A stretch of 64,000 nucleotides of DNA. Origin: Alphaproteobacteria bacterium. Lineage in GTDB: Bacteria; Pseudomonadota; Alphaproteobacteria; Micropepsales; Micropepsaceae. The stretch spans positions 62,001-126,000 of the forward strand of contig JAGWMG010000007.1 in the NCBI GenBank assembly GCA_028871795.1, given 5' to 3'. A program made the translations under genes and the position numbers. Shown piece after piece: positions 9,975 to 28,189 of this stretch. Below the pieces are notes generated by a model, which did not search any database, had not been told where the DNA came from, and saw only the letters and a list, made by a program, of their open reading frames with translations. Every line of letters begins with the position of its first letter. Position 1 is the first letter of the stretch.

Positions 9975-9992
9975 AATGGTAGCGCTCCCATC
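9975..9992. promoter_or_regulatory. LacI-family operator in front of the GH3-manD-MFS unit
   Basis: AATGGTAGCGCTCCCATC, an imperfect copy (two mismatches in the right half) of the 18-bp palindrome AATGGTAGCGCTACCATT found at 28172-28189. It lies in the short gap between the GH43 stop and the GH3 start, so it would control GH3, manD and the ExuT-like gene separately from the upstream unit. Confidence 0.7.
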
Positions 9993-10014
9993 GTACGAAC
10001 TGCTGGACTTCTTG

Positions 10015-11646
10015 TCAAAGAACGGGACGGTAGTCGCGCTCCTTGACCTCGAAGAAATCGAAGTCGGCGGGCAGACCCGTTCCCGCCAAATCCTGGCACG
10101 CCATGCCGACGAAGGCTCCGGTGAAATTCGGGCTGCCCGGCGCCGCCGCTTCGTCCGAGAGGATGCTTGCGTCAAATTGCTGCGGCAGCCACTGCCAGTC
10201 GCCGTCGTCCATGCGAAAGGCGAAGCGCAGCCGTTCGAAATCGACCTCGACGCGAAGATGCACGGGCTTGCCGCGCGCAATGGCAATGGGCGGCGTGAAC
10301 GAGTCGGATTGCGGTTGATCGGGCAATGCCGACATCACGCGGATATGTTTTCCGGCCGTGTCGTCGTGCGACACATAGAGATAGTGGAATTTCGAGCCGC
10401 CGTAATAGCACACCAGACCGGCCATCTGTTGGAAGTGCTCCGGTTCGAATTCCATCACGGTCGCCGCGCTGTAGCAGTGCGACTGCTGACGCCTCGCGAC
10501 CAGGGCTTGGCGGAACAGACTGCCGATCGTTTCGCGGCCGAACAGCCGCAAGAACCCCGGGCGCGCCTTCAGGCTGAACAATTCGTCCGGCCGCGGAGAT
10601 CGCAGCCACTGAAAGGCGAGCGGCAACGCGGGAGCGTTGAAATCCTCGCGTTCGGGCGCCGGCGGGAATTCATGCACCGGCAGGTCGGACGCTGGAACGT
10701 CCGTGTGCGGAACAGCTTGCCCGTCCGCCGTGCGCAACCAGCCGTCCGCCCCCCAAGCCATTGGTTGGATTGCAGTTTCCCGTCCAAGTGGGCAGCGTCC
10801 GCGGTTGCGCAACGGCCGTCCGCACAGATACACCATGTAGGTCTGATCACTCTGCGTTTCGACCAGATCGGCGTGTCCGGCGCGCTGCAACGCCACATCG
10901 GGGCGATGACGCGAACTCAGGATATGCACATCGGGGTGAAGTTCGTACGGCCCGGCGATGTGGCGCGCCCGCGCCATGGCGACGGCATGGTTCCAGCCGG
11001 TGCCGCCTTCCGCTGTCAGCAGATAGTAATAGCCGCCGCGCTTGTAGAGATGCGGCGCCTCGGTGAGACCGAGCGGCGTGCCTTTGAAGATCAGCTTGCG
11101 CTCGCCGATCAGCCGGCGTTTTTCGGCGGAATATTCCTGCAGCACGATGCCGGCAAACCGGTTTTGCCCCGGACGATGGTCCCACAGCATGTTGACGAGA
11201 TACTTGCGTCCGTCCTCATCGTGGAAAAGCGAGGGATCGAAGCCGCTGGAATTGAGATGGACGGGATCGGACCAGTCGCCGTCGATGGCGGGAGAGGTGA
11301 CGAGATAATTGTGGAAATCGCGCAGCGACGCGCCCGACGCGCCGCCGACCGTGGTGCGGCCGTAGCGTTTCACGTCGGTGTAGACCAGCCAGAACCGTCC
11401 GTCCGCGTACGACAGGCACGGTGCCCACACGCCGCACGAATCAGGATTTCCCAGCATGTCGAGCTGGCTGGCGCGCCGGAGCGGGCGCGTCAGCAGCCGC
11501 CAGTGCGCCAGATCGCGCGAATGGTGGATTTGGACGCCCGGATACCATTCGAAGGTCGAAGTGGCGATGTAGTAGTCGTCGCCGACGCGCACGATCGAGG
11601 GGTCAGGATTGAAGCCTCTGAGGATCGGATTGCGGATGTCCGGCAT
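10015..11646 (-). CDS. Glycoside hydrolase family 43, beta-xylosidase / alpha-L-arabinofuranosidase
   Basis: 543 residues from the ATG at 11646, 7 bases after the MFS stop. There is no signal peptide, so it is probably cytoplasmic. The N-terminal five-bladed propeller begins with NPILRGFNPDPSIVRVGDDYYIATSTFEW, which contains the catalytic-base Asp typical of GH43. GVWAPCLSYADGRFWLVYTD carries the conserved second-blade motif, and LTEAPHLYKRGGYYYLL carries the acid Glu. The C-terminal ~200 residues form the beta-sandwich (FPSDLQ-like) domain seen in XynB-type beta-xylosidases. It would hydrolyse imported xylobiose or arabinosylated oligosaccharides. The exact specificity cannot be read from the sequence. 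Confidence 0.9.
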   Translation of the reverse strand: MPDIRNPILRGFNPDPSIVRVGDDYYIATSTFEWYPGVQIHHSRDLAHWRLLTRPLRRASQLDMLGNPDSCGVWAPCLSYADGRFWLVYTDVKRYGRTTVGGASGASLRDFHNYLVTSPAIDGDWSDPVHLNSSGFDPSLFHDEDGRKYLVNMLWDHRPGQNRFAGIVLQEYSAEKRRLIGERKLIFKGTPLGLTEAPHLYKRGGYYYLLTAEGGTGWNHAVAMARARHIAGPYELHPDVHILSSRHRPDVALQRAGHADLVETQSDQTYMVYLCGRPLRNRGRCPLGRETAIQPMAWGADGWLRTADGQAVPHTDVPASDLPVHEFPPAPEREDFNAPALPLAFQWLRSPRPDELFSLKARPGFLRLFGRETIGSLFRQALVARRQQSHCYSAATVMEFEPEHFQQMAGLVCYYGGSKFHYLYVSHDDTAGKHIRVMSALPDQPQSDSFTPPIAIARGKPVHLRVEVDFERLRFAFRMDDGDWQWLPQQFDASILSDEAAAPGSPNFTGAFVGMACQDLAGTGLPADFDFFEVKERDYRPVL

Positions 11647-11653
11647 CGTCGGA

Positions 11654-12907
11654 TCAGCTCCCTTCGGGCGCGCGCACCAGGGTCCACAAAACGGCCGCGC
11701 CCACAAGATCGAAGGCGCCCAGCGCCACGAAAAACGGCGTGTAGCCGATGGTCGCGACCAAACCGCCGATCAGCAGATTGAACAGCAACAGGCCGAAATT
11801 GCCCAAAGTGCCCTGCATGCCCGCGACGGTTCCTACCTCGTTCTTCTTGAACAGATCGGAGGCCATGGTGATCACGGTGATCGACAAGGTCTGGTGCGCG
11901 AAGCCAGCGAGGCTGATGAGTGCGATCGCCAGATACGGACTCGCCACGAAGCCGGCGAAAGCAACGCCCGTCATCATGCAGGCGCCGAGCGTGAAGGCCC
12001 AACGGCGCGCGTCGATCAACGCGACGCCGCGCTTCTGCAACGCCAGCACGACCAGCGGCCCGAACAGGCAGCCCAGATCGGAGGCCAGGAACGGTATCCA
12101 GGCGAACAGCGCGATATGCGCGAGATCGAAATGCCGGGCCTGACTCAGATAAAGCGGCAGCCAGAAGGTCAGCGTGCCCCAGGTCGGATCGGCCAGGAAG
12201 CGCGGCAGCGCGATGCCCCAGAAATTGCGCCGCTCGAGAATTTGCCGGATCGAAGGGCGCGCGCTGCCAGCCTGCAGGAATTTCTCCTGTCCCAAAACGA
12301 TGTGCTTGCGTTCCTCGTCCGAAAGTGCCCGGTGCTTCTCCGGCGGATCGTAAAAGAACAGCCACAGCGCCACCCAGACGAGGCCGAGCGCACCGGCGAT
12401 GACGAATGCGGTCTGCCAATCATAGACGAGGATCGCCCACACCACGAGCGGCGGCGCCAGCATCGAGCCGACGGAGGCGCCGATGTTGAATATGCCGCCG
12501 GAAAGCCCGCGCTCCTTCGCCGGGAACCACTCCGCCGTCGCTTTCATGCCGGCGGGATTGGCCGATCCTTCCGCCAGCCCCAGCGCTCCTCTAAGCCATG
12601 CGAAAGCCTGCCAGCTGTGCGCCAGTCCGTGCGCCATGCAGATCAGCGACCACGCCAGGGCGAACAGCGCCGCGCCGTATTTGAGCCCGATCACGTCGAG
12701 AGCGTAGCCCGCGGCGGGCTGCAGCATGATCGCGCCCTGGAAGGCGCCCGTGATCCACGAATATTGCTGTGTGGTGATGTGCAGGTCCGTGAGGATGGTC
12801 GGCGCGGCGACCGAGAGCGTGCTGCGCGTCAGATAGTTGACGACCCCGCCCAGCATGACGAGGCCGATGATCCACCACCTAAGCCCGACGATCTTGCGCT
12901 TGGCCAT
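11654..12907 (-). CDS. MFS transporter, ACS-type (second sugar-acid/sugar permease of the locus)
   Basis: 417 residues from the ATG at 12907, where MAKRKIVGLRWWIIGLVMLGGVVNYLTRSTLS begins; the longer frame overlaps the esterase gene and is not used. About 12 membrane helices. GMKATAEWFPAKERGLSGGIFNIGASVGS is the ACS-family signature shared with the transporter at 4.9-6.2 kb, but the two are clearly different proteins. Four bases separate it from the esterase stop, so it belongs to the GH51-esterase-MFS-GH43 operon. The likely cargo is a xylan breakdown product (aldouronate, glucuronate or pentose); not determinable here. Confidence 0.85.
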   Translation of the reverse strand: MAKRKIVGLRWWIIGLVMLGGVVNYLTRSTLSVAAPTILTDLHITTQQYSWITGAFQGAIMLQPAAGYALDVIGLKYGAALFALAWSLICMAHGLAHSWQAFAWLRGALGLAEGSANPAGMKATAEWFPAKERGLSGGIFNIGASVGSMLAPPLVVWAILVYDWQTAFVIAGALGLVWVALWLFFYDPPEKHRALSDEERKHIVLGQEKFLQAGSARPSIRQILERRNFWGIALPRFLADPTWGTLTFWLPLYLSQARHFDLAHIALFAWIPFLASDLGCLFGPLVVLALQKRGVALIDARRWAFTLGACMMTGVAFAGFVASPYLAIALISLAGFAHQTLSITVITMASDLFKKNEVGTVAGMQGTLGNFGLLLFNLLIGGLVATIGYTPFFVALGAFDLVGAAVLWTLVRAPEGS

Positions 12908-12911
12908 TTCT

Positions 12912-14924
12912 CTACCGAGGTTTGACGCGGGGCGCGCGATTGCGGGCATGTCCGCGGGCGGGCTGGAGCGGCAGATCGAAAGGAGCGGCCGGCAACCCGG
13001 CCCCATCGAACAGGGTGCAGATCGGGCCGTCGGCCCAGCAATAGCGCACATGCGTGGGCGCGAACTTGGCGGGAACGTCCAACAAAACGCCGCTCGCCCG
13101 GATATGCGCGGTCGCATAGCGGCACGTCGCCTGGGTGGGTCCGCAAAGCTCGAAGCCTATCGGCGTGGAGGCGCCGTAGGCGGCGAGACCGCTCTCGACG
13201 TCGGAGAAGGTCACGGCGATGCGGCGCCCGTCGTGGCGCACCCTCGCGGCCGTCGGTCCGTTCGGGACGATGGGATTGCCATAAATCAAATGGCGCGCGG
13301 CGCGCGCCAGCCGTTTGCCGACCTCCTGCTTGTTGGCCGGATGGATGTCGGTGTGCTCGCCGATGTCGATGGTAACGACAAGCGCGGCATGGGCGTCGTT
13401 CGCCACCGCCTGACGTTGGGCTTCGCGCAACAGTGCCCAGTCCGAAGCCGCGGGCTTGGTCGGCGGCAAGCCGTAGCCCGGCAGCTGCACGATCAGGAAC
13501 GGCAGGTCCGCACCGAAACGTCCTCGCCAGTCCGCCATCAGAGCGGACAGCAGAGCGCGATAATTGTCTGGCCGGCCGGTGTTGGATTCGCCCTGGTACC
13601 ACACCACGCCGCGAAAGCCGAACGACCCCATCGGCACGATCATCGCGTTGTAGGCTATGCCCAGTCCGGCGGTTTCGCCCCAGGGCGCGCGCGGGGCCGG
13701 TCCCGCGCCGGCGGGGACGATCCGGTAGCGCCAAGGGCCGTTCAGCGGAACGGACGTCCCGTCCTGAAACTTCAGCGCGCGCTTTTCTGCCGTTCCGATC
13801 AGGCCGCAGCCGCGGTACGTGCACAGCACATTCGTAACCAAGGAGTTTTCGCCGGCATGGAGCGTTCCGGCAGGAAGCTCATAAGTCCGCACCTTGCCGA
13901 AGCCGAACATGTTTCCCACGGGCTTGCCGTTGACCCAGGTCTCGTCTTCCTCGTTGACCGCGCCGAGCGAAAGCGACGCGTCCTGCGCGGCCTGGCTTGC
14001 CGTGAGAGTCACCGTGGTGCGATACCAGAGCTGGCCCGCAAACCCGGCGAGCCCCGGGACATTCCAGTTTTGCCAATTGCCGAGACCCGCCGGCGCGACC
14101 GCCCAGTTGCTGTCGTCAAGCGAAGCGCTCCACAGTTCCGACCCCGCCTGCGTGTGGCTATGAGCGCGCCACCAGACCTCCCACATCGCGGCCCAACGCT
14201 CCGTCGCCGTCTTCGGGTCGGTTTCGTGCAGCTTCACAAGCTCGAGATCCTCGTCGTAGCCGCCGACCGCATGGAGCGCCTCGGAGCTCATCCAGGTCGT
14301 GATGTTGGCGCCGCCCGACGCTGCCGTGACCAGACCCATCGGGACGTGGACGGTTTTCTGCAATTCGCGGGCGAAATAAAAACAGGCGGCGGAGAAATCT
14401 GCGACCGTCGCCGGTCCCGCCACCTGCCATTTGACCGGTGTCGGGAAAGCATCGAGAGGCACGCCGCTGCCGTTCAATCCGACCGTGAGCATCCGGATCG
14501 TGCTGTTGGCGGAATTCTCGATCTCCGAGCGGGAATCCAGGGTCCGGCTCACCTGAAGGACCATGTTCGACTGACCGGAGCACAGCCACACGTCGCCGAC
14601 GAGAACGTCGTTGACGGTCTGGCTGCTGCCGGAGTCCGTGTTCACCGTGAGGGTATAAGGTCCGCCGGCCTCCATCGCGGGCAACGCCGCCTGCCAGCGG
14701 CCCGTGCCGTCGGCTTGTGCGCGAACCGATGCCTGTGCGATGGAGAGGGTCACCGTGGCGCCCGGTGTGGCGTGTCCCCATATCCGTATCGGCTTGTCGC
14801 GTTGGAGCACGACGTGATCCTGGAACATCGCGTTGAGCAGTGGTTCGGCTGCCGTTGCGGGCGCCGCCGCGCACAGAACAAGGCCTAGCAGGAACACCGC
14901 GGCGGAAAGGCGATTGGTCTTCAT
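12912..14924 (-). CDS. Sialate O-acetylesterase-family (SASA) carbohydrate esterase, likely acetylxylan esterase
   Basis: 670 residues from the ATG at 14924, with a signal peptide (about 25 residues, ending ATAAEP). The SASA / SGNH-type fold is shown by VWLCSGQSNM (nucleophile Ser block), GFRGVVWYQGESN, and the late DIGEHTDIHPANKQEVGKRLA block holding the Asp-x-x-His pair. An inserted jelly-roll sits in the middle (residues ~270-390). Family members remove O-acetyl groups from sialic acids or, in plant-polysaccharide loci, from xylan. With arabinofuranosidase and xylosidase neighbours, deacetylation of acetylated xylan is the best inference. It is second in the operon started by GH51. Confidence 0.88.
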   Translation of the reverse strand: MKTNRLSAAVFLLGLVLCAAAPATAAEPLLNAMFQDHVVLQRDKPIRIWGHATPGATVTLSIAQASVRAQADGTGRWQAALPAMEAGGPYTLTVNTDSGSSQTVNDVLVGDVWLCSGQSNMVLQVSRTLDSRSEIENSANSTIRMLTVGLNGSGVPLDAFPTPVKWQVAGPATVADFSAACFYFARELQKTVHVPMGLVTAASGGANITTWMSSEALHAVGGYDEDLELVKLHETDPKTATERWAAMWEVWWRAHSHTQAGSELWSASLDDSNWAVAPAGLGNWQNWNVPGLAGFAGQLWYRTTVTLTASQAAQDASLSLGAVNEEDETWVNGKPVGNMFGFGKVRTYELPAGTLHAGENSLVTNVLCTYRGCGLIGTAEKRALKFQDGTSVPLNGPWRYRIVPAGAGPAPRAPWGETAGLGIAYNAMIVPMGSFGFRGVVWYQGESNTGRPDNYRALLSALMADWRGRFGADLPFLIVQLPGYGLPPTKPAASDWALLREAQRQAVANDAHAALVVTIDIGEHTDIHPANKQEVGKRLARAARHLIYGNPIVPNGPTAARVRHDGRRIAVTFSDVESGLAAYGASTPIGFELCGPTQATCRYATAHIRASGVLLDVPAKFAPTHVRYCWADGPICTLFDGAGLPAAPFDLPLQPARGHARNRAPRVKPR

Positions 14925-14989
14925 TCGTTTTTCCCCGGAGTGAGGACGTGGAAATAGCGTTGCGCGAAGGTCGGGAAGCCTGGCCATAG

Positions 14990-16600
14990 TCATTGCAGTG
15001 TGAGCACGACGACAGATTTCGCCGGCATGTCCACAGCGAGCTTGCCGCCCGCAAGCGCGGCGCCCGTGAACACGGCAGGCTTCACCGCGTCGGGACGAGC
15101 GAAGGTATTGTGCGCGTCCATCGTGTTCGCGCTGAGGATCGAGCCGCTCACCGATGTGTAGCCCGCCGGCTCAAGCGAGACGTCCGTGTGAGCCGCGCGG
15201 TGGGGGTCGAGGTTGACGAGCGCGATCACGACGCGGCCGTCTGGGTCGCGCGCCACGGCGACGTGCAGCGCGGGAACCGCGGCGCCGCCGAAGCGGTAAT
15301 CCGGCGTGTTCAAATCGAATGCCAGATTCATCGCGCCGCGGAACGGCTTGTACATCATAAAGACATGATAGGTCGGCGTCAGCATCATCCACGGGCCGTT
15401 GGTGAAGATCATGGCCTGCAGGACGTTCACCATCTGCGTGATGCACGCCATGCGCACGCGGTCGGCATGGGCCTGGAAGATGTCGAGATTGACCGCCGCC
15501 GTGACCGCGTCGCGCAAGGTGTTCTGCTGATGCAGGAAAGCCGGATTGGTTCCCGGCTCCACGTCGTACCAGTTGCTCCATTCATCGACGTACAGCGCCA
15601 CCTTCTTGTCGGGATCGTACTTGTCCATTACGGCGCTGTGCGCGGCGATCAGGGCGTCCATCTTCAGCGCCCGCTGCATGATGGACATCCATTGATCCTC
15701 GCCGAAGCCCGTCGCCGGGCCCTTGGAGCCCGTCCAACTGCCGGTCGGCAAGGAAAAATGATGCAAGGTGACGGCGTCCATGTCGTGGAACTTGTTGCTG
15801 GCCATCAAGGCTTCGGTCCAGGCGGTGTTGTCGTCGTACGAGCCGGCGGCGATCCATTTTGGCGTGTCGTCTTTGGGCGTCTTCGCGAACGTCGCGTACC
15901 AGTGATACAGGTCGGCGTAGAATTCCGGCCGCATGTTGCCGCCGCAGCCCCACAACTCGTTGCCGAAGGCAAAATAGTCCACCTTCCACGGTTTCTTGCG
16001 CCCGTTCTTCGCGCGAAGCTGCGCCAGTGACGACTTGGAATCCGATGTCAGATACTCGAGCCAGTCCTTGGTTTCCTGCGGCGAACCGGTTCCGACGTTG
16101 CTGTCGATGTAGGACTTGGCCCCCAATTGCTGCATCAGATCGAGGTACTCGTGGGTGCCCACCGCGTTTGTCTCCGCAACGCCGCCCCAGGTCGTGTTGA
16201 TCCGGGTCGGGCGGTGCGATCCGATCCCGTCGCGCCAGTGGTACTGGTCGGCAAAACAGCCGCCCGGCCAGCGCACGACCGGCACGCCCAGTTTTTTCAA
16301 GGCGTCGACGACGTCCTTCCGGAAGCCGCGGACGTTCGGGATCTTCGAGTGTGCGCCGACCCACAGCCCGCCATACATGCCGTTGCCGAGATGTTCGGCG
16401 AATTGCCCGTAGATCTCCGGGCTGATGACGGCGAGCGGCCTGTCCGTATGGACTGTCAATTCGCCTTGAACGACGTCAGGTGCGGCCCAAGACATTCCGG
16501 CAAAAACACAAGCTGCGGCGCAGGCGAGCAGATGCCACACGACGCCACTGCGGATCGATTTTGTCACCGAAGTTTTCCCTTCCCGCCGGACAGCTTCCAT
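14990..16600 (-). CDS. Glycoside hydrolase family 51 alpha-L-arabinofuranosidase (exported)
   Basis: 536 residues. It removes arabinose side chains from arabinoxylan. A signal-peptide-like core (VVWHLLACAAACVFAGMSWAA) lies at ~20-40, unusual for GH51 enzymes, which are often cytoplasmic. The catalytic acid/base is Glu215 in FGNELWG and the nucleophile Glu340 in YVDEWSNWY. RWPGGCFADQYHW is the GH51 barrel signature. The start may be the ATG at 16600 or a GTG 12 codons in that has AAGGG upstream; the latter gives a tidier signal peptide. It is first gene of the GH51-esterase-MFS-GH43 operon, transcribed away from the GH115 unit across a shared operator. Confidence 0.9.
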   Translation of the reverse strand: MEAVRREGKTSVTKSIRSGVVWHLLACAAACVFAGMSWAAPDVVQGELTVHTDRPLAVISPEIYGQFAEHLGNGMYGGLWVGAHSKIPNVRGFRKDVVDALKKLGVPVVRWPGGCFADQYHWRDGIGSHRPTRINTTWGGVAETNAVGTHEYLDLMQQLGAKSYIDSNVGTGSPQETKDWLEYLTSDSKSSLAQLRAKNGRKKPWKVDYFAFGNELWGCGGNMRPEFYADLYHWYATFAKTPKDDTPKWIAAGSYDDNTAWTEALMASNKFHDMDAVTLHHFSLPTGSWTGSKGPATGFGEDQWMSIMQRALKMDALIAAHSAVMDKYDPDKKVALYVDEWSNWYDVEPGTNPAFLHQQNTLRDAVTAAVNLDIFQAHADRVRMACITQMVNVLQAMIFTNGPWMMLTPTYHVFMMYKPFRGAMNLAFDLNTPDYRFGGAAVPALHVAVARDPDGRVVIALVNLDPHRAAHTDVSLEPAGYTSVSGSILSANTMDAHNTFARPDAVKPAVFTGAALAGGKLAVDMPAKSVVVLTLQ

Positions 16601-16626: not shown

Positions 16627-16644
16627 AATGGTAGCGCTCCCATT
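16627..16644. promoter_or_regulatory. LacI-family operator in the GH51/GH115 divergent promoter
   Basis: AATGGTAGCGCTCCCATT, one base from a perfect 18-bp palindrome. It lies 26 bp upstream of the GH51 start and 61 bp upstream of the chosen GH115 start, so one bound repressor could control both divergent operons. The ATG at 16628 is inside this operator, which argues against it being the GH115 start. Confidence 0.75.
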
Positions 16645-16705: not shown

Positions 16706-19594
16706 ATGCAACCGACGATCTCCACGCTTATGAGGATCGTGCTCGGCGCCATCGCGGCCCTCGTCATTATCACACCCGCGCTGGCGGACAACCTTGTCTT
16801 ATTCGACGGCAAGACGGTTGCTTCCATTGTCTACGCGGGATCGGACGGCACTGCGATGTCGAAGGCCGCCGCCCTTCTTTCGCACGATCTGAGCGAACTG
16901 ACCGGCCGCCTCCCCACGGTCGCCTCCAGCGTCTCCGGCGGCAAAGGCGTCGCGGTGGTGATCGGCCGCGCGGACTCGCCCGAGATCGCCGCCATCCTGA
17001 AGGCCAACGCCATCAGCACCGCGTCGATCGCGGGAAAATGGGAAACCTATGGCCGCGCCGCGGTTCCCGCGCCCTGGAACCCCAAGGAGCGTGTTCTTGT
17101 CGTCTTCGGATCGGATACGCGCGGCACCATCTGGGGCGTGATCGACCTGACGCGCGAGTTGGGAGTCTCACCCTGGGAATGGTGGGCGGACGTCAAGACC
17201 CGCAGGGTCGCCCGCATCGCCGTCGATGCCACTCTGCGCTATTCGAAAGAGCCGTCGGTAAAATATCGCGGCATCTTCCTGAACGACGAGGATTTCGGCC
17301 TCCATCCGTGGTCCGCCAAGACCTATGATCCCAAGGGCGGCGACATCGGGCCCAAGACCTACGCGCGCATCTTCGAACTGATGTGGCGGCTGAAGGCCAA
17401 CACGATCTGGCCGGCGATGCACAAGATCACTGATCCGTTCAACGCCGATCCCGGTAATACCGAGATGGCGGCGTCCTACGCGATCGTGCGGGCCTCCTCC
17501 CATGCCGAACCCATGCTGCGTTCCAACGAGCGCGAATGGAACGAAAAGACGATGGGGCCGTTCAACTGGCTCACCAACAAACAGAACGTCCTCAAGTACT
17601 GGGACGACGTGGTGAACGAGAAAAAGCAGTTCGAGAATCTCTATACGGTCGGACTTCGCGGCACGGGCGACAGTCCAATGGAAGGCGTCGAAACGCCCCA
17701 GCAGACCGCCAGAGTGCTCGAGGACGTGATCGCCGAACAACGCAAAATCCTGGAGGACCGGGTCGGCAAACCGGCGGACCGGATCCCGCAGGTCTTCACG
17801 CCCTACAAGGAAGTGCTCCCCGCCTACGACGCCGGCCTGAAACTGCCCGACGACATCACCATCACCTGGCCGGACGACAATTACGGCTATATCCGCCGGC
17901 TCGGCAACGCGCAGGAGCGCGCGCGCTCGGGCGGTTCCGGCGTCTATTACCACATCTCCTACTGGGGCTCGCCGATGTCCTATCTGTGGCTGGCGACGAC
18001 GCACCCCGCGCTGTTGTGGGAGGAAATGGACAAAGCCTACCGCTTCGAAGCGCGCAGGATCTGGATCGTCAATGTCGGCGACACAAAGCCCGGCGAATAC
18101 CTGACCCAGCTTTTCCTCGACATGGCGTTCGACGACGGCGCCTTCCCCAACATCGACAGCGTTCGCGCCCATCTGAAGAACTGGGCGGCGGGGAGCTTCG
18201 GCGAAGAACATGCGGGCGAAATTGCCGACATCCTGTGGCGCTATTACGATCTCGCCTTCGCGCGGAAGCCGGAATTCATGGGCTGGAACGAACTTTATCC
18301 GAACCTGCCGCTGCATGAGACCGCGTTCAACATGCTCGATTTCGGCGACGAGAATGCGCGCCGCGTCGCCGCCTACCAGGACATCGCTTTGCAGGCCGAC
18401 AAGTTGACGGCGCAACTGCCGAAGGACCGCCGCGACGCCTTCTTCCAACTCGTCCGCTATCCGGTGGATGCCGCCGCGGATTTCAACGAGCGCATCCTCG
18501 ACACCGACAAGGCCATCGCCTATGGCCTGCAGCACCGCGCCAGCGCCAATCTCTATTCGGCGCGCGCCGGACAGGCGCAGGCCCGCCTCCTCGCCGCCAC
18601 GCATACCTACAACGATGTGATGTCCGGCGGGAAATGGCGCAATATGATGGACATTGCGCCGAACCGGCTGCCGCAGTTCGAACCGCCCGTCTTTCCAACC
18701 TGGAAGGGTGGCGGCGACACGGGTTGCGGCGTGCAAGCCGAGGGCGGCGGCTATTACGACGCCGGCGGCGGCTTGCCGGTTTTGCCCGCGTTCCATCGCG
18801 AACTGGGCGGCAGCCGCTACGTCGATATTTTCGTCAAGACGCCCGTGGCCGCCGCATGGACCGCCACGGCCGGCGCACCGTGGATCAAACTCAGCCGGAC
18901 CAAGGGCGGTCTCGGGCCGAAGAACCCCGAGCAGCGCTTCCTAGTCTCGATCGACTGGGCCGGCGCGCCGGAGAAAGGGCGCAGCAAGATCACGCTTACT
19001 TGCGGAGCGGCGAAAAAACCAATTCCGGTCGGCGTACCGATCGCGCCGCGCAGCCCGCCCGGCGTCTCCTTCATCGAGGCGGACCGGATCGTGTCGATGT
19101 ATGCCGCCCACGCGGATACGAGGAGCGACGGCTGGGAGGTGCTCGACGGGTTGGGCCATGCCGGCGCCAGCCTGCGCACCAGGCTCGATATGGCGTCGAT
19201 CGATACCGCCGATCCGGCTGCGATTTTGAAAGCGCCGGCCGTCACCTATCGCTTTGCCACGGCGACGGCGGATGATCCCGCGACACTGCGCGCGATCGCA
19301 CTGCCGATGCTGCCCGTCACCTCGGCAAACGGCATGCGGATCGCGGTTTCCGTCGACGGCGGCGCACCGAAGATACTCGACCTCAGTGCGGCCGAATTCA
19401 GCGCGACGTGGCGGCGAAACGTCCTGACCAATACCGCCGTCGGTCAAATCGGAAACCTGCGGCTGGCGCCAGGCGCGCATGCATTGACCGTTTATGCGCT
19501 CGATCCGGGCGTCACACTGGATCGCCTTGAAGTCAGCTTCACGGGGGCGCAGCGCGCCTACGGACCGGTTCCCGAAACAAGGATCAAGCCGTGA
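16706..19594 (+). CDS. Glycoside hydrolase family 115 xylan alpha-(4-O-methyl)-glucuronidase (exported)
   Basis: 962 residues from the ATG at 16706 (GAGG upstream); the signal peptide MRIVLGAIAALVIITPALA follows at residues 9-27. Upstream in-frame ATGs fall in or near the operator and are not preferred. GH115 hallmarks are KYRGIFLNDEDFGLHPW, the long (alpha/beta)8 barrel with RLKANTIWPAMH, ITWPDDNYGYIRR, and VYYHISYWGSPMSYLW. The C-terminal BACON-like and sandwich regions (AAWTATAGAPWIKLS) match the family. GH115 removes (methyl)glucuronic acid from both internal and terminal xylose of xylan. First gene of the GH115-GH10-GH67 operon, and the longest enzyme of the locus. Confidence 0.93.
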   Translation: MQPTISTLMRIVLGAIAALVIITPALADNLVLFDGKTVASIVYAGSDGTAMSKAAALLSHDLSELTGRLPTVASSVSGGKGVAVVIGRADSPEIAAILKANAISTASIAGKWETYGRAAVPAPWNPKERVLVVFGSDTRGTIWGVIDLTRELGVSPWEWWADVKTRRVARIAVDATLRYSKEPSVKYRGIFLNDEDFGLHPWSAKTYDPKGGDIGPKTYARIFELMWRLKANTIWPAMHKITDPFNADPGNTEMAASYAIVRASSHAEPMLRSNEREWNEKTMGPFNWLTNKQNVLKYWDDVVNEKKQFENLYTVGLRGTGDSPMEGVETPQQTARVLEDVIAEQRKILEDRVGKPADRIPQVFTPYKEVLPAYDAGLKLPDDITITWPDDNYGYIRRLGNAQERARSGGSGVYYHISYWGSPMSYLWLATTHPALLWEEMDKAYRFEARRIWIVNVGDTKPGEYLTQLFLDMAFDDGAFPNIDSVRAHLKNWAAGSFGEEHAGEIADILWRYYDLAFARKPEFMGWNELYPNLPLHETAFNMLDFGDENARRVAAYQDIALQADKLTAQLPKDRRDAFFQLVRYPVDAAADFNERILDTDKAIAYGLQHRASANLYSARAGQAQARLLAATHTYNDVMSGGKWRNMMDIAPNRLPQFEPPVFPTWKGGGDTGCGVQAEGGGYYDAGGGLPVLPAFHRELGGSRYVDIFVKTPVAAAWTATAGAPWIKLSRTKGGLGPKNPEQRFLVSIDWAGAPEKGRSKITLTCGAAKKPIPVGVPIAPRSPPGVSFIEADRIVSMYAAHADTRSDGWEVLDGLGHAGASLRTRLDMASIDTADPAAILKAPAVTYRFATATADDPATLRAIALPMLPVTSANGMRIAVSVDGGAPKILDLSAAEFSATWRRNVLTNTAVGQIGNLRLAPGAHALTVYALDPGVTLDRLEVSFTGAQRAYGPVPETRIKP

Positions 19595-20793: not shown

Positions 20794-20858
20794 AGGGAGA
20801 CGGCGATGAGCAGGGATCGACGCCCATCCCCCGCCGAAACAATGAAGGAGAATATCCG

Positions 20859-23021
20859 GTGAAAATCGCTTCGCTGCTGCAAGGTCTTTTTGTATCGGCG
20901 ATACTCGCCTTAGCGTCCGCTGCGCACGCCGAAGACGGCTACGATCTTTGGCTGCGTTACCATCCCGTCGAAAAGGAATGGCTGGGCCGGTACCGCACCG
21001 ACGCGACGACGCTCGTCACCGCGGGAAGCTCGCCGACAGCCCGGGCCGCACGAGACGAGCTGGCGCGGGGGCTTCGCGGGCTGTTGGGCCGCGCCGTCAA
21101 GCTCGACGACACGATCCGCGGCAACGGCGCTGTCCTGTTCGGGACACCGGCGAACTCGCGCACGATCGCCGGGCTGAACCTGCCGCTCGCCAAGCTCGGA
21201 GCGGAAGGCTATGTTATCAGGAGCGTGACGGCGCGCGGCCGCAAGCTGACCGTGATTGCCGCGAATGGCGATGTCGGCGTGCTCTACGGTGCGTTCCACT
21301 TCCTGCGCCTGATGCAGACGCGCCAGTCCATCGACCATCTGGACGTCGCCTCGGTGCCGCGCATCCAATATCGAATTCTCGATCACTGGGACAATCTCGA
21401 CCGCACCGTCGAGCGCGGCTACGCGGGGTTTTCGATCTGGGACTGGCAGAAGCTGCCGGACTATCTCGATCCGCGCTACACGGACTATGCCCGCGCGCAA
21501 GCTTCCATCGGCGTCAACGGCGTCGTGCTCAACAATGTCGGCGCCCAGACCGCAATGCTGACTCCGCTGTACCTGAAAAAAGCCGCCGCCCTGGCCGACG
21601 TCTTCCGCCCCTACGGGATCAAGGTCTATTTTTCCGTGCGGTGGAGCACGCCGATGGAACTCGACGGCCTCAAGAGCGCCGATCCGCTCGACCCGGCCGT
21701 GATCGCGTGGTGGAAGGCCAAAGCCGACGAAATCTACGGCGCCATTCCCGATTTCGGCGGTTTCCTGGTGAAGGCCAATTCCGAAGGCCAACCCGGCCCG
21801 CAGGACTACAAGCGCACGCACGCCGACGGCGCCAACATGCTGGCGGACGCGCTGGCGCCCCATCACGGCATCGTCATGTGGCGGGCCTTCGTCTATTCGC
21901 AAAACAATCCCGTGGATCGCGTCAAGCAGGCCTATGATGAGTTCGTGCCGCTCGACGGCAAGTTCGACGACAACGTCATCGTGCAGGTGAAGAACGGGCC
22001 GCTCGATTTCCAGCCGCGCGAGCCGTTCAGTCCGCTGTTCGGCGCGACGCCGAAGACGAACCTCGCGCTCGAAGTCCAGATCACCAAGGAATATCTCGGA
22101 TTTGCCACGCATCTCGCCTATCTCGGGACCATGTGGCAGGAGGTCCTCGAAAGCGACACCTATGCGCGCGGACCCGGCTCGACGGTCGCGAAAGTCGTCG
22201 ACGGCTCGCTGTTCGCGAACAAGCTCACCGCCATGGCGGGCGTCGGCAACGTCGGCACGGACCGCAACTGGACCGGCTCGCAGTTCAACCAGGCGAACTG
22301 GTACGCCTTCGGCCGCCTGGCCTGGAATCCGAATCTTTCGGCGCGCGCGATTGCCGAGGAGTGGGTGCGCATGACCTTCACCAACGACAAGGCCTTCGTC
22401 GCGCCGGTCGTCGACATGATGATGGGCTCGCGCGAAACCGTCGTGGACTACATGACGCCGCTCGGGCTGGCGCATCTCATGGGCACCGGCCATCACTATG
22501 GACCGGCCCCGTGGGTCGACAACGCCGGGCGTCCCGACTGGAACCCGGTCTATTATCATCGCGCCGACGCGCAGGGTATCGGCGTCGATCGGACACCGAC
22601 AGGCAGCAATGCCGTCGCACAATATGCGCCACCGCTGGCGGCGCAGTTTACCGATCTCGACAAGACACCCGACAAGTATCTCCTGTGGTTCCATCACGTT
22701 GCGTGGGATTACAAGATGAAATCCGGGCGCACATTGTGGGACAAGCTGGTGCTGCACTACACGCATGGGGTCGAGGACGTGGCGAAGATGCGGACCACCT
22801 GGGCAAAGCTAAGGCCCTATGTCGATCCCCAGAGATACGAGGAGACGGCCGCCTATCTGGCGATCCAAGAGAAGGAAGCCAAGTGGTGGCGCGATGCGTG
22901 CATCGCCTATTTCCAGACCTTCTCGAACCGCCCGCTGCCGCCCGGCATGGCACCTCCCGAACATCCGCTGGCGTATTATAAGGGCCTGAGCTTTCCTTAT
23001 GAGCCGGGAACCGCGCGGTGA
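20859..23021 (+). CDS. aguA: Alpha-glucuronidase, glycoside hydrolase family 67
   Basis: 720 residues from a GTG with AAGGAG upstream, and a signal peptide ending AAHAED near residue 25. GH67 removes (methyl)glucuronic acid only from the non-reducing terminal xylose of short oligosaccharides. Acid Glu309 is in VKANSEGQPGP, and Asp383 and Glu411 line up with the paired bases known in Cellvibrio GlcA67A. DHWDNLDRTVERGYAG is a strong family signature. It follows GH10 by 65 bp in the same operon. Many GH67 enzymes are cytoplasmic, so the apparent signal peptide is notable. It ends convergently 22 bp from uxuB. Confidence 0.93.
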   Translation: MKIASLLQGLFVSAILALASAAHAEDGYDLWLRYHPVEKEWLGRYRTDATTLVTAGSSPTARAARDELARGLRGLLGRAVKLDDTIRGNGAVLFGTPANSRTIAGLNLPLAKLGAEGYVIRSVTARGRKLTVIAANGDVGVLYGAFHFLRLMQTRQSIDHLDVASVPRIQYRILDHWDNLDRTVERGYAGFSIWDWQKLPDYLDPRYTDYARAQASIGVNGVVLNNVGAQTAMLTPLYLKKAAALADVFRPYGIKVYFSVRWSTPMELDGLKSADPLDPAVIAWWKAKADEIYGAIPDFGGFLVKANSEGQPGPQDYKRTHADGANMLADALAPHHGIVMWRAFVYSQNNPVDRVKQAYDEFVPLDGKFDDNVIVQVKNGPLDFQPREPFSPLFGATPKTNLALEVQITKEYLGFATHLAYLGTMWQEVLESDTYARGPGSTVAKVVDGSLFANKLTAMAGVGNVGTDRNWTGSQFNQANWYAFGRLAWNPNLSARAIAEEWVRMTFTNDKAFVAPVVDMMMGSRETVVDYMTPLGLAHLMGTGHHYGPAPWVDNAGRPDWNPVYYHRADAQGIGVDRTPTGSNAVAQYAPPLAAQFTDLDKTPDKYLLWFHHVAWDYKMKSGRTLWDKLVLHYTHGVEDVAKMRTTWAKLRPYVDPQRYEETAAYLAIQEKEAKWWRDACIAYFQTFSNRPLPPGMAPPEHPLAYYKGLSFPYEPGTAR

Positions 23022-23043: not shown

Positions 23044-24519
23044 TCACTCCGCCGGCAGAAGCTTGGGGAGCCGGTCGTAGGCGGAGGCCACGGCCGCCGC
23101 AAATCGCCGGTCGCCGGCAAGATCGGACGCAAAGATTTCGCGCACGGCAAGAAACCGCGGCACGTCGGCGCCCGCTTCGCCGGTGCATTCCCGGCCGATA
23201 CGCGCCAGGCGCTCGGCAAGCGGATCGTTGAGCGTTCGCCCCTCCTTGGCCTCGCGCACCGCGAAGCGCATCCAGGCCGCAACGGAAACCGCAAGCCGCT
23301 CGATCGGGCGTCCGGCCGATAACGCGTCTGCGATCGTCGCGAGAATGCGATAAGGCAGCTTCTGGGAGCCGTCGGACCCGATCTGGATGAGCTTGTGCGT
23401 CAGTGCGGGGTTGCGGAAGCGCTTCAGGATGTCGGAGACATAGGAATCGAAGTCGAGGCCGCGGGTCTTGCGCAGCGAGACCGCGATGTCCTCACGCATC
23501 ATGCGCTCGACGAAGCCCGCCAAGCGGGCGTCGCCCATGGCTTCGCCGACAGAGGCATAGCCCATCAGCAGCCCGACATAGGCGAGCGTCGAGTGGGCGC
23601 CGTTCAGCAGCCGCAGCTTCGCAAGCTCATAGGCCTTCACGTCGCCCGTCAGGCTGGCGCCCACACCGGCAAGATCGGGAGCATCGGGACCAAGGATGTC
23701 CTCGACAACCCATTGCAGGAAGCTTTCCCGCTGCACCGGTGCGTCGTCGAACACGCCGACCGCTTCGGCCACCTTCTGCTTCAGCGCCTCGTCGCCGGCG
23801 GGCGTGATGCTGTCGACCATCGTGCATGGAAAGCGCACCTCGCCGGCAATCCAGGCCGTCAAATCCTTGTCGCCGCAGGCTTTCGCGAAGCTCAGAACCG
23901 CCGCGTGCAGCTTCTCGCCATTGGCCACCATGTTGTCGCAACTCATGGCGACGAAAGGGGCAAGCCCCTTGGCTTTGCGCCGCGCCAATCCCTCCGTCAC
24001 CCAGCCCACGGCGCTGACGGGCCTGGCCGGATCGGCGAGGTCATGGGCGATGTCGGGATGCCGGAAATCCAGCGCGCCGCTGCCGTCGAGGCAGTAGCCC
24101 TTCTCGGTCACCGTAAGCGTCACGAGCTTGACCTGGGGATGGGTCAGGCGGGAGAAAATCGTCTCGGCGTCGTCCGGCACCACGAGAATTTCCTTGAGCG
24201 AACCCACGACGCGATACCGGATTTGGGCATCCAGCTCGGCGACGACGTAAAGGCAATCCTGCGGCCGCAGCGCCTTCGCAAGCCCGGGCGGACGCAGCTC
24301 GGCACCACAGACGGCCCAGCGCGGATCGCGCTCCAGGAGCGTGTCGTAGTACCAGGCTTGATGACCGCGATGGAACGCACCGGGCCCGAAATGGACGATG
24401 CCGACTTGCGTCCGTCCGCGATCGTAACGCGGGACAATGACGCCGGACCGCACAGCGGACAAGCTTTGCGCCGTCAGGCGGCGTCTTTCGGAGTCGTGCT
24501 TCTTCTGCGGAGCGTTCAT
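23044..24519 (-). CDS. uxuB: Fructuronate reductase / mannitol dehydrogenase family (UxuB)
   Basis: 491 residues, the usual length of the long-chain polyol dehydrogenase family. The N-terminal Rossmann domain begins VGIVHFGPGAFHRGHQAWYYD; the second domain carries KLRLLNGAHSTLAYVGLL, the family's catalytic-lysine helix region. In glucuronate catabolism UxuB reduces D-fructuronate to D-mannonate with NADH, the substrate of the ManD enzyme at 6.3-7.5 kb. Mannitol or arabinitol dehydrogenases share the fold; the presence of manD and two glucuronidases makes UxuB the best choice. The upstream terminator at 24551-24590 separates it from the receptor gene. Confidence 0.88.
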   Translation of the reverse strand: MNAPQKKHDSERRRLTAQSLSAVRSGVIVPRYDRGRTQVGIVHFGPGAFHRGHQAWYYDTLLERDPRWAVCGAELRPPGLAKALRPQDCLYVVAELDAQIRYRVVGSLKEILVVPDDAETIFSRLTHPQVKLVTLTVTEKGYCLDGSGALDFRHPDIAHDLADPARPVSAVGWVTEGLARRKAKGLAPFVAMSCDNMVANGEKLHAAVLSFAKACGDKDLTAWIAGEVRFPCTMVDSITPAGDEALKQKVAEAVGVFDDAPVQRESFLQWVVEDILGPDAPDLAGVGASLTGDVKAYELAKLRLLNGAHSTLAYVGLLMGYASVGEAMGDARLAGFVERMMREDIAVSLRKTRGLDFDSYVSDILKRFRNPALTHKLIQIGSDGSQKLPYRILATIADALSAGRPIERLAVSVAAWMRFAVREAKEGRTLNDPLAERLARIGRECTGEAGADVPRFLAVREIFASDLAGDRRFAAAVASAYDRLPKLLPAE

Positions 24520-24689: not shown

Positions 24690-24701
24690 TAAGTTTACGG
24701 C

Positions 24702-27700
24702 TTAGAACGTGCCGCGGAGGCCGAACAGATAGAAGCTGCCGCGGTCGTAGTAGGTGAACGGAGCAGAAGGATATTGGAAGTAGGACTTCTGCTTGGCTTT
24801 GAAAAGATTCTGGATGTCGAAGGTCAGTTCTGGATCCGTCGGGATATCTCCGAACAGAGTGGAAAGTTTCAGGCTGGACGAGAAATCCGTCTGTGCGTAC
24901 GGCGCACCGAAGAGGTACGCACCCTGCGGGCAGCCTGCAGACGAAGAGGTCGGCAGGCAGATGCCGTTCTGGTTCGAGCCCGACGCGTAGGTCTTGGCGT
25001 TGTAGTTGTGCGAGAGGCGCAACATGATGCCGTTGTTCTCGTAATAGATCGTCGCGTTGTCAGTGAACGGCGAAACGCCGGTGGCGATCGCCGGCGCACC
25101 GGACCCAGTGCCCACTTGCCCGACAATCGTCATGTTGGCGGTAAAGCCGAAGCCTTTCAGACCATAGTCCGCGAGCAGGAAGTCGAGAGGCTGCACCCAG
25201 TCGAACTCAACACCCTCGATGTGCAGATGGCCCGATGCATTGACCTGCTCCTGGACGATGACGGTGGTGTTACAGTTGCTGTCCGACGTACAGCCTCTGG
25301 CCTGAAGAGCCGCTTGCTGCGTCGGGTTCACGGTCGAGTAGGTGATCCCGTATTGCGCCAGGAACGAGAACGGTTCCGTCGTGTTGCCGAGGACGGTGAA
25401 GCCGCTCAGGTTCTTATGGAAGTACGAAGCCCCGATGTAACCCTCGCCGCCGGTGTAGTACTCGACACCGAGGTCGATATTGTTGGAGTAATAAGGCGCC
25501 AACGCCGGGTTGCCGATGCCAACTTGTGCGGCCGAGGGATCGCCGAAGCTTACGCCCGGGAGCATTGCGCTCGGATTGGGCCGTGTCATCGTGCGGGAGA
25601 GCGACCCTCTGATCTGCCAGTTGTCTGCCACATTGTAGACGAGACTCAAGGACGGCAGGATCGAATGGTACGTGTGGAGCGTGGTAGCGAACGTATTATA
25701 GCTCGGGTACTTGGCGCCGTCCGGCAACGAAATGATCGTGGTGTGGCCCGCCAGACATGACGCCGAGATGGGCGCGGCCGGCTGCCCGCAATAGACGGTG
25801 ACGTTGTTGCGCGGATCGGCATGCGACACGAATCCGCCGATCAACTGGCGCGTCTGCACCCAGCGCAGACCGACGTTGTACTTCAGATCGCGGTCGAAAA
25901 AAGGAAACATGCCGTTCAGTTCGGCGTATGCGCCCCAGTTCTTTTCGTCGACCAAGCCCGCATTGGCGCCGGTGTTGGAACCGCCGGACACGGGTGCGTT
26001 CGGATAGTCGAACGAAGCATAATGAGAATCCGCTTTGATCTTGGCGTAGTTGGCCGTGATGAATCCGTTCGGTCCCGTCATCAGATAATTTGCCAGTGCC
26101 GATTGCGGGATCGACGAGCCTTGATAGGTCAGCGCCGGGGAGCCGACGGTAGAGCCGGCGCCCAAACCGTAAATCGCCCCTGCAGGGTACACGTTCGGAA
26201 CCACGCTGAGGCCGTTGCCGGCGGCATTATAGAGGAAATACGTCGGTAATCCCGCAGCGACGATCGCGGGATTCCTGGGATCGTAAGCCGGACCCGGGCC
26301 AGGCGCTCCCGTAAGAGCGGGACCGGTGACATTCAAGCCGTTGCATCCCGGAGACGAGTTGCCGGCGGGAAGGACGCTCGGGCCGTCGCCGCAGATGGAG
26401 GCCTGCCACGCCGCGTCGTTGTTGTAACCCGTGATGTTCCGGTATGCCTCGTCATAGGCGAAACCGGCTTTGACGTTCATTTCGTCGCCGCCGTACTCGA
26501 CGTCGCCGTGAATGCCGTTGGTGTAGGTGTAGCGCTTTTCGTCCTGGACGTTCACGCGACCGCCCTGCCATGTGAAGTTGGCCGGATTGTTGAGGTCGAT
26601 GTTAAACGCTTCGGTCGGGAACATGCTGGTATTCGTGTAAGTCACAAATGCGCCGCCCGCGGGCGCGACCGGGTCGCCGGCCGTCAAGGGCGTGGTGTGA
26701 CTGCTTGCCGGCGTGTTGACCAGGATGGTCGGCGAATCACGGAAGAAGTGGCTGCGGGCCACGTTCGCCTTCAATGAGACGTGCAACAGATCGGTGACCT
26801 GCCAATCCATGCCCGGATTAAGGCTGAGGAAGTCTTCCTTCTCCTTGTACGGGCGGGCTTCCAGGAAGAACTGCGAGTTGGCGAAGACACCGCTGGTCAC
26901 GACGCCGTTGGAGTCGATCTTCAGGTTCTCCGGGATCATCGAACCGTTGCGCCCGACCCAGTCGATGTCGCTGCGATCGAGATTGTTGTCGAGGCGTCCG
27001 CCGATGAAGTCGATGTAGAAATGCAGATTGTCGGAGGGCCGGTATTCGGCGCTGACGATGGCGTTATACCGCGAGCGCGTGCCTTTTTCGTACATCGGGC
27101 GTCCCAGGCGCGGGATGAGGGCCTTGCTGATCTGCTCGACCGTCAGGCCGGGATTGAGCGACATCAGCAAAGCCTGGTTGATTGTCTGGCCCGGAACGAG
27201 GCCGCCGGTTGTAACGTTGGCCGGGACTGTTGCGGGAATCGTCCAGTTGCCGCCGCCGATGCTTCCGCAATCCGCTGCAGGGCACATGGCCGCGTTCAGC
27301 TTCGGCGTGGTCCAGCCGATGGTCTCGAAGCCGGTCGTGTACATGTGGTTGATCTGGCCGGTGAGGCCGACGAGAAGGCCGAACGGACCCTCGGTGTCGC
27401 TGACGATCAACGTGCCGCGCGGACCGACCTCGGCATGGCCGTGGTCGAACGCGGTGCCCTGGGCCGAATAGGTGAAGTGCAGGCCCGGCTTGTCAAACGG
27501 GCGCATAGTGCGCATGTCCACCGTGCCGGCGGCGCCGCCTTCGAGCGTATCCGCCAGCGGACTCAGGTGGACCGTCAACTGCGTGAACAGCTCGGAAGGC
27601 AGCATGTTGAGGTCGACTTCACGGTTGGTACCCTGCGCGTCCGTCGTGCCGGTCGATCCCATCGTAACTTGGGCGCCGTTCAGCAGAACTTTGGTAAAGC

Positions 27701-28043
27701 TGGAGCCCAGACCGCGGATTTGAACGTTCACGCCTTCGCCGTCGATTTCACGGGAGATCGTGACGCCCGGAATGCGGTTCAAGGATTCCGCGATGTTGGT
27801 GTCCGGGAATTTGCCGATGTCTTCCGCGAAGACCGTATCGATGAAGCCGACGGACGCACGCTTCGCGTTGGTCGCGTCGGCCAAGCTTGCGCGATAGCCC
27901 GTTATCGTGACGGTTTCGATGCCGGCCTCTTGAGCAAAGGTTGGAGCGGCGGCAAGCAGCGCCGAGGCCACTCCCACGAGGAGCGACGTACCCATCAGCA
28001 ACGACGATCTTGATTGAATCCTACGATTTGTCTGGTTCGACAT
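24702..28043 (-). CDS. TonB-dependent outer-membrane receptor (Caulobacter-type oligosaccharide transporter)
   Basis: 1113 residues with a GGGAGGA RBS and a signal peptide ending TFAQ near residue 38. A TonB-box-like segment (ETVTITGYRAS) is followed by a plug domain with IGKFPDTNIAESLNRIPGVTI and VQIRGLGSSFTKVLLNGAQ, signatures of the large TIGR01782-type receptors that import sugars in Caulobacter relatives. The barrel ends in an aromatic residue (RGTF), as outer-membrane proteins do. No SusD partner is present, as is usual in Proteobacteria. Two LacI-type operators precede it. It is probably the import gate for glucuronoxylo-oligosaccharides; the substrate is inferred from the locus. Confidence 0.92.
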   Translation of the reverse strand: MSNQTNRRIQSRSSLLMGTSLLVGVASALLAAAPTFAQEAGIETVTITGYRASLADATNAKRASVGFIDTVFAEDIGKFPDTNIAESLNRIPGVTISREIDGEGVNVQIRGLGSSFTKVLLNGAQVTMGSTGTTDAQGTNREVDLNMLPSELFTQLTVHLSPLADTLEGGAAGTVDMRTMRPFDKPGLHFTYSAQGTAFDHGHAEVGPRGTLIVSDTEGPFGLLVGLTGQINHMYTTGFETIGWTTPKLNAAMCPAADCGSIGGGNWTIPATVPANVTTGGLVPGQTINQALLMSLNPGLTVEQISKALIPRLGRPMYEKGTRSRYNAIVSAEYRPSDNLHFYIDFIGGRLDNNLDRSDIDWVGRNGSMIPENLKIDSNGVVTSGVFANSQFFLEARPYKEKEDFLSLNPGMDWQVTDLLHVSLKANVARSHFFRDSPTILVNTPASSHTTPLTAGDPVAPAGGAFVTYTNTSMFPTEAFNIDLNNPANFTWQGGRVNVQDEKRYTYTNGIHGDVEYGGDEMNVKAGFAYDEAYRNITGYNNDAAWQASICGDGPSVLPAGNSSPGCNGLNVTGPALTGAPGPGPAYDPRNPAIVAAGLPTYFLYNAAGNGLSVVPNVYPAGAIYGLGAGSTVGSPALTYQGSSIPQSALANYLMTGPNGFITANYAKIKADSHYASFDYPNAPVSGGSNTGANAGLVDEKNWGAYAELNGMFPFFDRDLKYNVGLRWVQTRQLIGGFVSHADPRNNVTVYCGQPAAPISASCLAGHTTIISLPDGAKYPSYNTFATTLHTYHSILPSLSLVYNVADNWQIRGSLSRTMTRPNPSAMLPGVSFGDPSAAQVGIGNPALAPYYSNNIDLGVEYYTGGEGYIGASYFHKNLSGFTVLGNTTEPFSFLAQYGITYSTVNPTQQAALQARGCTSDSNCNTTVIVQEQVNASGHLHIEGVEFDWVQPLDFLLADYGLKGFGFTANMTIVGQVGTGSGAPAIATGVSPFTDNATIYYENNGIMLRLSHNYNAKTYASGSNQNGICLPTSSSAGCPQGAYLFGAPYAQTDFSSSLKLSTLFGDIPTDPELTFDIQNLFKAKQKSYFQYPSAPFTYYDRGSFYLFGLRGTF

Positions 28044-28149
28044 ACGTATTTCCTCCCCGCTGTCGCGTACACGCGTACGATGGTTTCCTTCACCGGTCTC
28101 GGTTGGCGGTCGCCCATTCGTTCTTGTCGTAAGGCTATTTTGCCGGGCG

Positions 28150-28167
28150 AATGGTAGCGCTTCCTTT
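28150..28167. promoter_or_regulatory. LacI-family operator (imperfect) upstream of the TonB receptor
   Basis: AATGGTAGCGCTTCCTTT: the left half matches the consensus exactly and the right half is degenerate. Its centre is 22 bp, about two helical turns, from the perfect operator at 28172-28189, so two repressor dimers could sit on the same DNA face and bind together. Confidence 0.65.
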
Positions 28168-28171
28168 CGAG

Positions 28172-28189
28172 AATGGTAGCGCTACCATT
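28172..28189. promoter_or_regulatory. LacI-family operator, perfect 18-bp palindrome
   Basis: AATGGTAGCGCTACCATT, fully self-complementary with the central CG step typical of LacI/GalR operators. It is the best copy of the motif also found at 9975, 16627 and 28150. It lies about 130 bp upstream of the receptor start, between it and the lacI-like gene. Confidence 0.85.

Follow-up and report, generated by a model that had tools for sequence, protein, structure and literature searches.

Xyl-box type candidate operators and a likely LacI-family repressor in a glucuronoxylan locus of the Micropepsaceae

What regulates the xylan-utilization genes carried by a 64,000-nucleotide stretch of contig JAGWMG010000007.1 (hereafter the window) from an alphaproteobacterium of the Micropepsaceae, and which LacI-family protein of the same genome is likely to do so? 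An earlier note on this DNA had proposed that four copies of an 18-bp palindrome define a LacI-controlled xylan regulon, and the four copies are indeed present: matches to AATGGTAGCGCTACCATT with up to three mismatches occur at positions 9975, 16627, 28150, and 28172, and at the same threshold dinucleotide-shuffled versions of the window contained no match (100 shuffles; mean, 0.00; maximum, 0). We interpret the palindromes as operators of a glucuronoxylan regulon of the XylR/xyl-box type, with the product of the linked LacI gene (28445 to 29515, minus strand) as the most likely repressor, a reading to which we assign a probability of roughly 0.68. Regulons of this type are already known, and the locus is a further example.

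The copy at 28172 to 28189 (operator 1) is a perfect 18-bp palindrome without mismatches to AATGGTAGCGCTACCATT, and lies 128 nt upstream of the ATG of a TonB-dependent receptor gene. Its tandem partner AATGGTAGCGCTTCCTTT (operator 2, 28150 to 28167; two mismatches), in which the right arm is degenerate, ends 106 nt from the receptor start, and the two are spaced 22 bp center to center, about two turns of DNA. The gap between the divergent GH51 and GH115 genes holds AATGGTAGCGCTCCCATT (operator 3, 16627 to 16644; one mismatch), roughly 60 nt away from the probable start on either side; it overlaps a mechanically called ATG (16628), and the probable GH115 start is at 16706. The remaining copy, AATGGTAGCGCTCCCATC (operator 4, 9975 to 9992; two mismatches), lies between the stop codon of a GH43 gene (10015) and the probable start of a GH3 gene (∼9920), 54 nt upstream of the latter, and because it is inside a co-directional string of genes it would mark an internal promoter. 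Each xylan-utilization unit (the GH3 unit, the divergent GH51/GH115 pair, and the receptor with its tandem pair) is therefore preceded by a copy, as the note had described. All four sites are 18 nt long with a central CG, lie 54 to 128 nt upstream of probable starts, and have G at both second and both fifth positions. The fit to LacI operators that had been proposed from the central CG and symmetry also holds, as all four are promoter-proximal even palindromes in the range of 16 to 22 nt. A survey of LacI-family regulators (PMC4052901) describes such 16- to 22-nt even palindromes with a central CG, with >75% of sites 30 to 140 bp upstream of the start and autoregulation in 72% of regulators; our sites are alike in size, symmetry, central CG, and position, but an autoregulatory site was not found here.

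The window's own genome (G000; 2,976,465 bases, 22 contigs, 95.59% complete) contains no other place within two mismatches of the palindrome, such that 4/4 matches are in the xylan locus; the reversed control gave none, and a uniform model expects 0.06. At up to three mismatches a single place is added, C14:90704 (L005/L238), and the reversed control also gives one. This place, with three mismatches, falls within coding sequence close to the N-terminal end of a different GH3 (with a PA14 domain), and was rejected as an operator, being probably a chance match. A looser pattern, TGNTAGCGCTANCA with up to one mismatch, gave seven places in G000 (three in the xylan locus, one before xylBA, and three others on contigs C7, C8, and C11) and 17 for the control; with fewer places than the control, this loose scan alone is uninformative. 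Its exact matches are two, operator 1 and TGATAGCGCTAACA on contig C21, the latter lying 92 nt upstream of an FGGY kinase gene (Pfam) that is unlinked to the xylan locus. The kinase gene and the next gene appear to be xylBA, the identity of the xylose isomerase being read from its protein sequence. The uxaC gene is also on C21 (L271, G000:C21:304029), with a degenerate candidate, TGATAACGTTACGG (two mismatches in 10 fixed bases), ∼103 nt upstream of the match. The notion that the four sites define a regulon thus stands in part: there is good support for a xylan regulon of the LacI family, but the four sites are not all of it, as there is a looser site before xylBA. We also note a KdgR-like uronate locus on C11 (L239, G000:C11:205000-224500), encoding a LacI with a VS-KK helix, a KduI-family protein, a TonB receptor, and a PfkB kinase; a weak site, TGATAGCGCTCTCA, lies before its receptor gene.

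Conservation was examined by footprinting in 60 genomes of the genus (designated by G numbers, with G000 counted). Sites with up to two mismatches are present within 350 nt upstream of 7/8 receptor ortholog starts (8 of 10 rows were taken, the other two being later pieces of the same genes), and in the six other receptor loci with a site it lies 154 to 181 nt upstream of the aligned start. The 22-bp spacing recurs before one receptor paralog in G053 and one in G075, where an additional, weaker element (three mismatches) accompanies the first site. For GH115 homologs, 6 of the 18 loci scanned have a site at this level and two more have one at three mismatches; 18 of 20 rows were scanned, the remaining two starting at a contig end. 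Five of these 18 loci are distant paralogs (32 to 34% identity) without a site, and the last seven scanned contributed one site with up to two mismatches, in G072. Only 2 of the 22 GH67 loci scanned have such a site (22 of 33 rows, excluding tandem second copies and cut genes), and as GH67 usually lies downstream in its unit, being third in the window, a site of its own is not expected there. Upstream of xylB, TGNTANCGNTANCA is found without mismatch in 13 of 14 orthologs (14 of 15 rows, with one cut gene excluded); the G023 xylB (56% identity) has no site. Across the 60 genomes there are 21 sites within two mismatches of the 18-mer, in 11 genomes, and four sites in three genomes for the reversed control. 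A further observation is a xyl-box-like tandem in G011 (contig C15; L148:9843-9879), 23 bp apart and near a TonB receptor homolog, where the nearby LacI is only 31% identical to that of the window.

The sites can be compared with those of known xylose regulators. In two reports (PMC7748154, PMC10380989), the xyl-box of Xanthomonas campestris is given as TGGTAGCGCTAACA, and a LacI-type XylR represses, with relief by xylose. This box and our core are identical except at 1 of 14 bases; the individual sites have one mismatch (28172 and the xylBA site), two (16627 and 9975), or three (28150) in the 14 positions compared with the box as given there. Gene content is also similar, as the Xanthomonas clusters described in a third report (PMC3071791) contain GH10, GH67, mannonate dehydratase, an oxidoreductase, a hexuronate transporter, a TonB receptor, and a LacI. 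For Xanthomonas, a connection to hrp has been reported as well. Unlike in Xanthomonas, GH115 and GH51-type genes are also present in the window, xylBA and uxaC lie away from the locus, and the host belongs to a genus with an alphaproteobacterial metagenome-assembled genome. The linked LacI also has KT and not PM in its recognition helix, which is unusual (see below), and it is a paralog of the LacI type to which the named relatives are closer. Caulobacter crescentus XylR, which acts at PxylX, is described (PMC7198004) as a xylose repressor of the LacI family whose operator spans 14 bp, and it is by this description (LacI family, 14 bp) rather than letter by letter that the Caulobacter operator was compared. 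Caulobacterales loci in this analysis carry TGATAGCGCTACCA or TGTTAGCGCTAACA near LacI genes, and an oxidative xylose locus is resembled not by the window but by a locus on contig C2 of G000 (IlvD/EDD, aldehyde dehydrogenase, and sugar MFS genes). The resemblance to XylR sites that the earlier note had proposed was therefore right in kind, with the Xanthomonas xyl-box as the sequence compared; among the matches listed in a literature search with the palindrome letters and variants, those judged relevant were from Xanthomonas. The likeness to the Xanthomonas XylR system is one of operator and gene content, and the LacI proteins compared were those of named relatives.

Beyond the sites, their placement, and their conservation, a link to one LacI sub-family is directly observed. 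Named genomes were scanned for relatives of the LacI proteins, and the best 80 loci (1.49 Mb) were kept. These contain 81 places within two mismatches of the core TGGTAGCGCTACCA (3 exact, 24 with one mismatch, and 54 with two), compared to a single core-like place when each locus was shuffled once by dinucleotides; 26 of the best 80 loci have a core-like place with up to one mismatch. Exact matches to TGNTANCGNTANCA number 66, in 46 of the best 80 loci (shuffled mean, 0.4), and in the other 34 an exact-pattern site is absent from the stretch examined. For 26 of the 80 loci, which were mapped by means of the window and C2 proteins, GH67 is near the LacI gene in 22, often with SASA, ManD, GH3, GH43, xylAB, or oxidative-xylose-type genes, and in Qipengyuania and Erythrobacter the exact core TGGTAGCGCTACCA stands before GH67. 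The LacI sub-family and the operator type thus co-occur in the Alpha-, Beta-, and Gammaproteobacteria.

The linked LacI is not the sole candidate binder, a simpler view that we rejected, because four genes of G000 score above the Pfam cut-off for LacI, and one of the others, on C2, is XylR-like. The linked LacI (356 amino acids; Pfam LacI and Peripla_BP_3 domains) and the C2 LacI are 56 to 57% identical, and the latter is neighbored by genes for an aldehyde dehydrogenase, an IlvD/EDD dehydratase, a sugar MFS transporter, an aldose epimerase, and a GH3. In a tree of 23 of the 80 named loci and 31 rows from the genus, the window LacI clade comprises 12 rows, all from the genus (support, 100/99); it joins the C2-type clade at weak support (91/60), and within the tree the rows with a KT helix group at 73/59. 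The recognition helix of the linked LacI reads VS-KT-TVSR, as it does in G053 (two copies), G075 (two copies), and G058, and with G000 these make up the KT genomes; the C2 LacI and most relatives have VS-PM-TVSR. Among the best 80 named relatives the helix was identified by pattern in 72 (PM in 58, AM in 11, TM in 2, and SM in 1) and by eye in the other eight (six PM, one QM, and one without a helix in the stretch); KT never occurs. Residues 17 and 18 of LacI-type proteins read half-site positions 4 and 5. The G058 LacI ortholog (66% identical) sits with UxuB, GH67, and three sites, such that in both G000 and G058 a KT-type LacI is found among xylan/uronate genes and their sites. As a separate observation, G053 and G075 have two KT-type LacI genes per genome (L091, L108, L154, and L169), located away from xylan genes. 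No paper on such a pair of LacI paralogs was noticed in open-literature listings, which is weak evidence.

Sub-types of the candidate operators near LacI genes, counted as matches to TGNTANCGNTANCA with up to one mismatch, bear on which paralog is the binder. Near KT-type LacI genes there are eight sites (1.65 expected), five of which have G at both second positions (three in G000 and two in G058), the remaining three being single weak places in the G053 and G075 loci. Near C2-type LacI genes (14 loci, including one on contig C145 of G075 whose LacI is cut by the contig end before the helix) there are 23 sites (3.6 expected), with 12 of the TAACGCTA type and five with G at both second positions; that these are mostly of another sub-type favors the linked LacI. 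Five loci of the window clade encode a PM helix and have five sites (two with G at both second positions, two CG, and one AG; 1.10 expected), and one KM locus of this clade has two. At the C2 locus of G000 itself, the sole candidate is AATGATAGCGTTAACGCA (L134:5391), which is weak, asymmetrical, and of the TAACGCTA type, and lies before the sugar MFS gene. For xylB, 13 operators were compared after exclusion of G023, and G is present at both second positions in 4/4 KT genomes and in 0/9 others (eight TAACGCTA and one TACCGCTA). These counts do not represent independent events, since G000, G053, and G075 are closely related. The KT genome G058 stands further off (its xylB is 73% identical, as in most genomes without KT); G082, at 85%, is close yet has the other sub-type, with no LacI match at the cut-off in this 79% complete genome. 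The sub-type evidence leans toward the linked LacI as the binder in G000, with sharing possible.

Promoter predictions come from a simple scan for matches to consensus -35 and -10 boxes. A promoter-like sequence before GH3, TTGACA-17-TACGAT, matches the consensus at 10 of 12 positions (0.0 in shuffles), and another before the receptor gene reads TTGACC-18-AACAAT (0.3 in shuffles); the same scan found no promoter-like match in the GH51/GH115 gap. Operators 1 (on the minus strand) and 4 are in the same register, with the first three bases of the operator being the last three of the predicted -10 box. A register 3 nt further on scores at least 9/12 in 10 of 32 sites, and 12 of 13 xylB sites start with TATGAT, a 5/6 match to a -10 box.

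Several observations weigh against the linked LacI as repressor of these promoters. By blastp score, 80/80 of the best named relatives are closer to the C2 LacI than to the linked LacI. Nine further window-type LacI loci (two each in G053 and G075, and one each in G042, G046, G054, G066, and G076) have no close xylan-gene homolog in the fetched flanks, where the single receptor homolog, at one locus, is 26 to 31% identical; linkage of this LacI to xylan genes is thus not general. There is no operator-like site upstream of the linked LacI gene, the best match in 29516 to 29710 having 6 mismatches in 14, and autoregulation was rejected for lack of a site. A single promoter register for all operators was likewise discarded, as that seen in the window scores at least 9/12 in only 2 of 32 sites. 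Finally, the KT helix is not strictly tied to the motif, given that 8 of the 56 non-KT genomes of the genus carry a site with up to two mismatches and the KT genome G058 carries none at that level. An alternative is that the C2 LacI is the main binder, with the linked LacI responding to a different sugar or acting at other sites, as the relatives that side with C2 have core-like sites in their neighborhoods and PM, AM, TM, or SM helices (one QM), and the nine window-type loci lie away from xylan genes. Nonetheless, we consider this unlikely, because sites with G at both second positions, typical of the xylan locus, are the minority (5/23, compared to 12/23 of the TAACGCTA type) near C2-type LacI genes, because the only C2-linked candidate in G000 is weak and of the other sub-type, and because xylB operators divide with the KT helix, albeit among related genomes.

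A second alternative, to which we give similarly little weight, is that both paralogs bind overlapping sets of sites and that their regulons are coupled, for example, through different inducers acting at shared operators. The two sub-types differ little, G likewise occupies both second positions in the sites near the C2-type LacI genes of G053 and G075 (with the helix of the G075 LacI lying off its contig), and the G000 xylBA site TGATAGCGCTAACA is mixed; yet the four G000 xylan sites all carry G at both second and both fifth positions, in which they differ from the one C2-linked candidate. As short perfect or near-perfect inverted repeats, the palindromes could in principle be repeats of another kind, such as ends of mobile elements, a methylation motif, or terminator hairpins, but they are placed near probable starts of genes of one pathway, are conserved before orthologous genes, and are linked to one LacI sub-family. 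Terminator scans gave two matches, at 28334 to 28351, and none at the four palindromes, and we regard this explanation as highly improbable. The earlier view of the linked LacI as the natural binder is accordingly retained with qualification: the operator sub-types lean to it, but the named relatives are closer to the other XylR-type LacI, on C2, and in the relatives examined the orthologs of the linked LacI are mostly apart from xylan genes.

With the linked LacI as the preferred repressor, we infer binding, repression, inducer, and choice of paralog from the sequences as follows. A dimer would sit on each of the four operators across the -10/start region and block transcription of the receptor gene with uxuB, both arms of the GH51/GH115 pair, and the internal GH3-manD-MFS unit. 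At the receptor, the 22-bp tandem could place two dimers on one face of the helix for tighter promoter control. A xylan-derived sugar would release the repressor, perhaps xylose by analogy with XylR, and the same repressor, or the C2 paralog, may also control xylBA.

The genes so affected were named from Pfam and NCBIfam profile searches. The LacI gene is upstream of the TonB-dependent receptor gene (24702 to 28043, minus strand; NCBIfam TonB-Xanth-Caul) and of a UxuB-like gene for a mannitol-dehydrogenase-family oxidoreductase (23044 to 24519, minus strand; best NCBIfam match fructuronate reductase, below cut-off), as well as of their two operators. The UxuB-like gene has no site of its own and is probably cotranscribed from the receptor promoter. 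Judged by spacing, GH115 (16706 to 19594), GH10 (19591 to 20793), and GH67 (20859 to 23021), all on the plus strand, form a probable operon (16706 to 23021) under operator 3. A second probable operon under operator 3, in the minus direction (10015 to 16600), comprises a GH51-type arabinofuranosidase (14990 to 16600), a SASA-type esterase (12912 to 14993), an MFS transporter (11654 to 13117), and GH43 (10015 to 11706). The genes for GH3 (7484 to 9920), D-mannonate dehydratase ManD (6266 to 7477), and an MFS transporter (4894 to 6405), also on the minus strand, are probably a unit (4894 to 9920) under operator 4. Near the left end of the window and outside the xylan block is a tyrosine recombinase/integrase open reading frame (1187 to 2245, plus strand).

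How the two paralogs arose can be suggested only tentatively. In a scenario that we find possible though rather doubtful, XylR duplicated in this lineage, and the xylan-linked copy switched its helix from Pro-Met to Lys-Thr, with operators TAGCGCTA replacing TAACGCTA (G at both fifth positions); it would thereby have become a dedicated glucuronoxylan regulator insulated from the C2 xylose-type regulator, with the unlinked xylBA operator following in the four genomes that carry the new protein. The sites provide a testable operator map for the glucuronoxylan locus in this lineage, and the xyl-box type operator is present in many proteobacterial neighborhoods of one LacI sub-family. The genome also offers a natural pair of LacI paralogs whose candidate operators differ slightly within a single cell, a small case of how targets may come to be divided between repressors after duplication.

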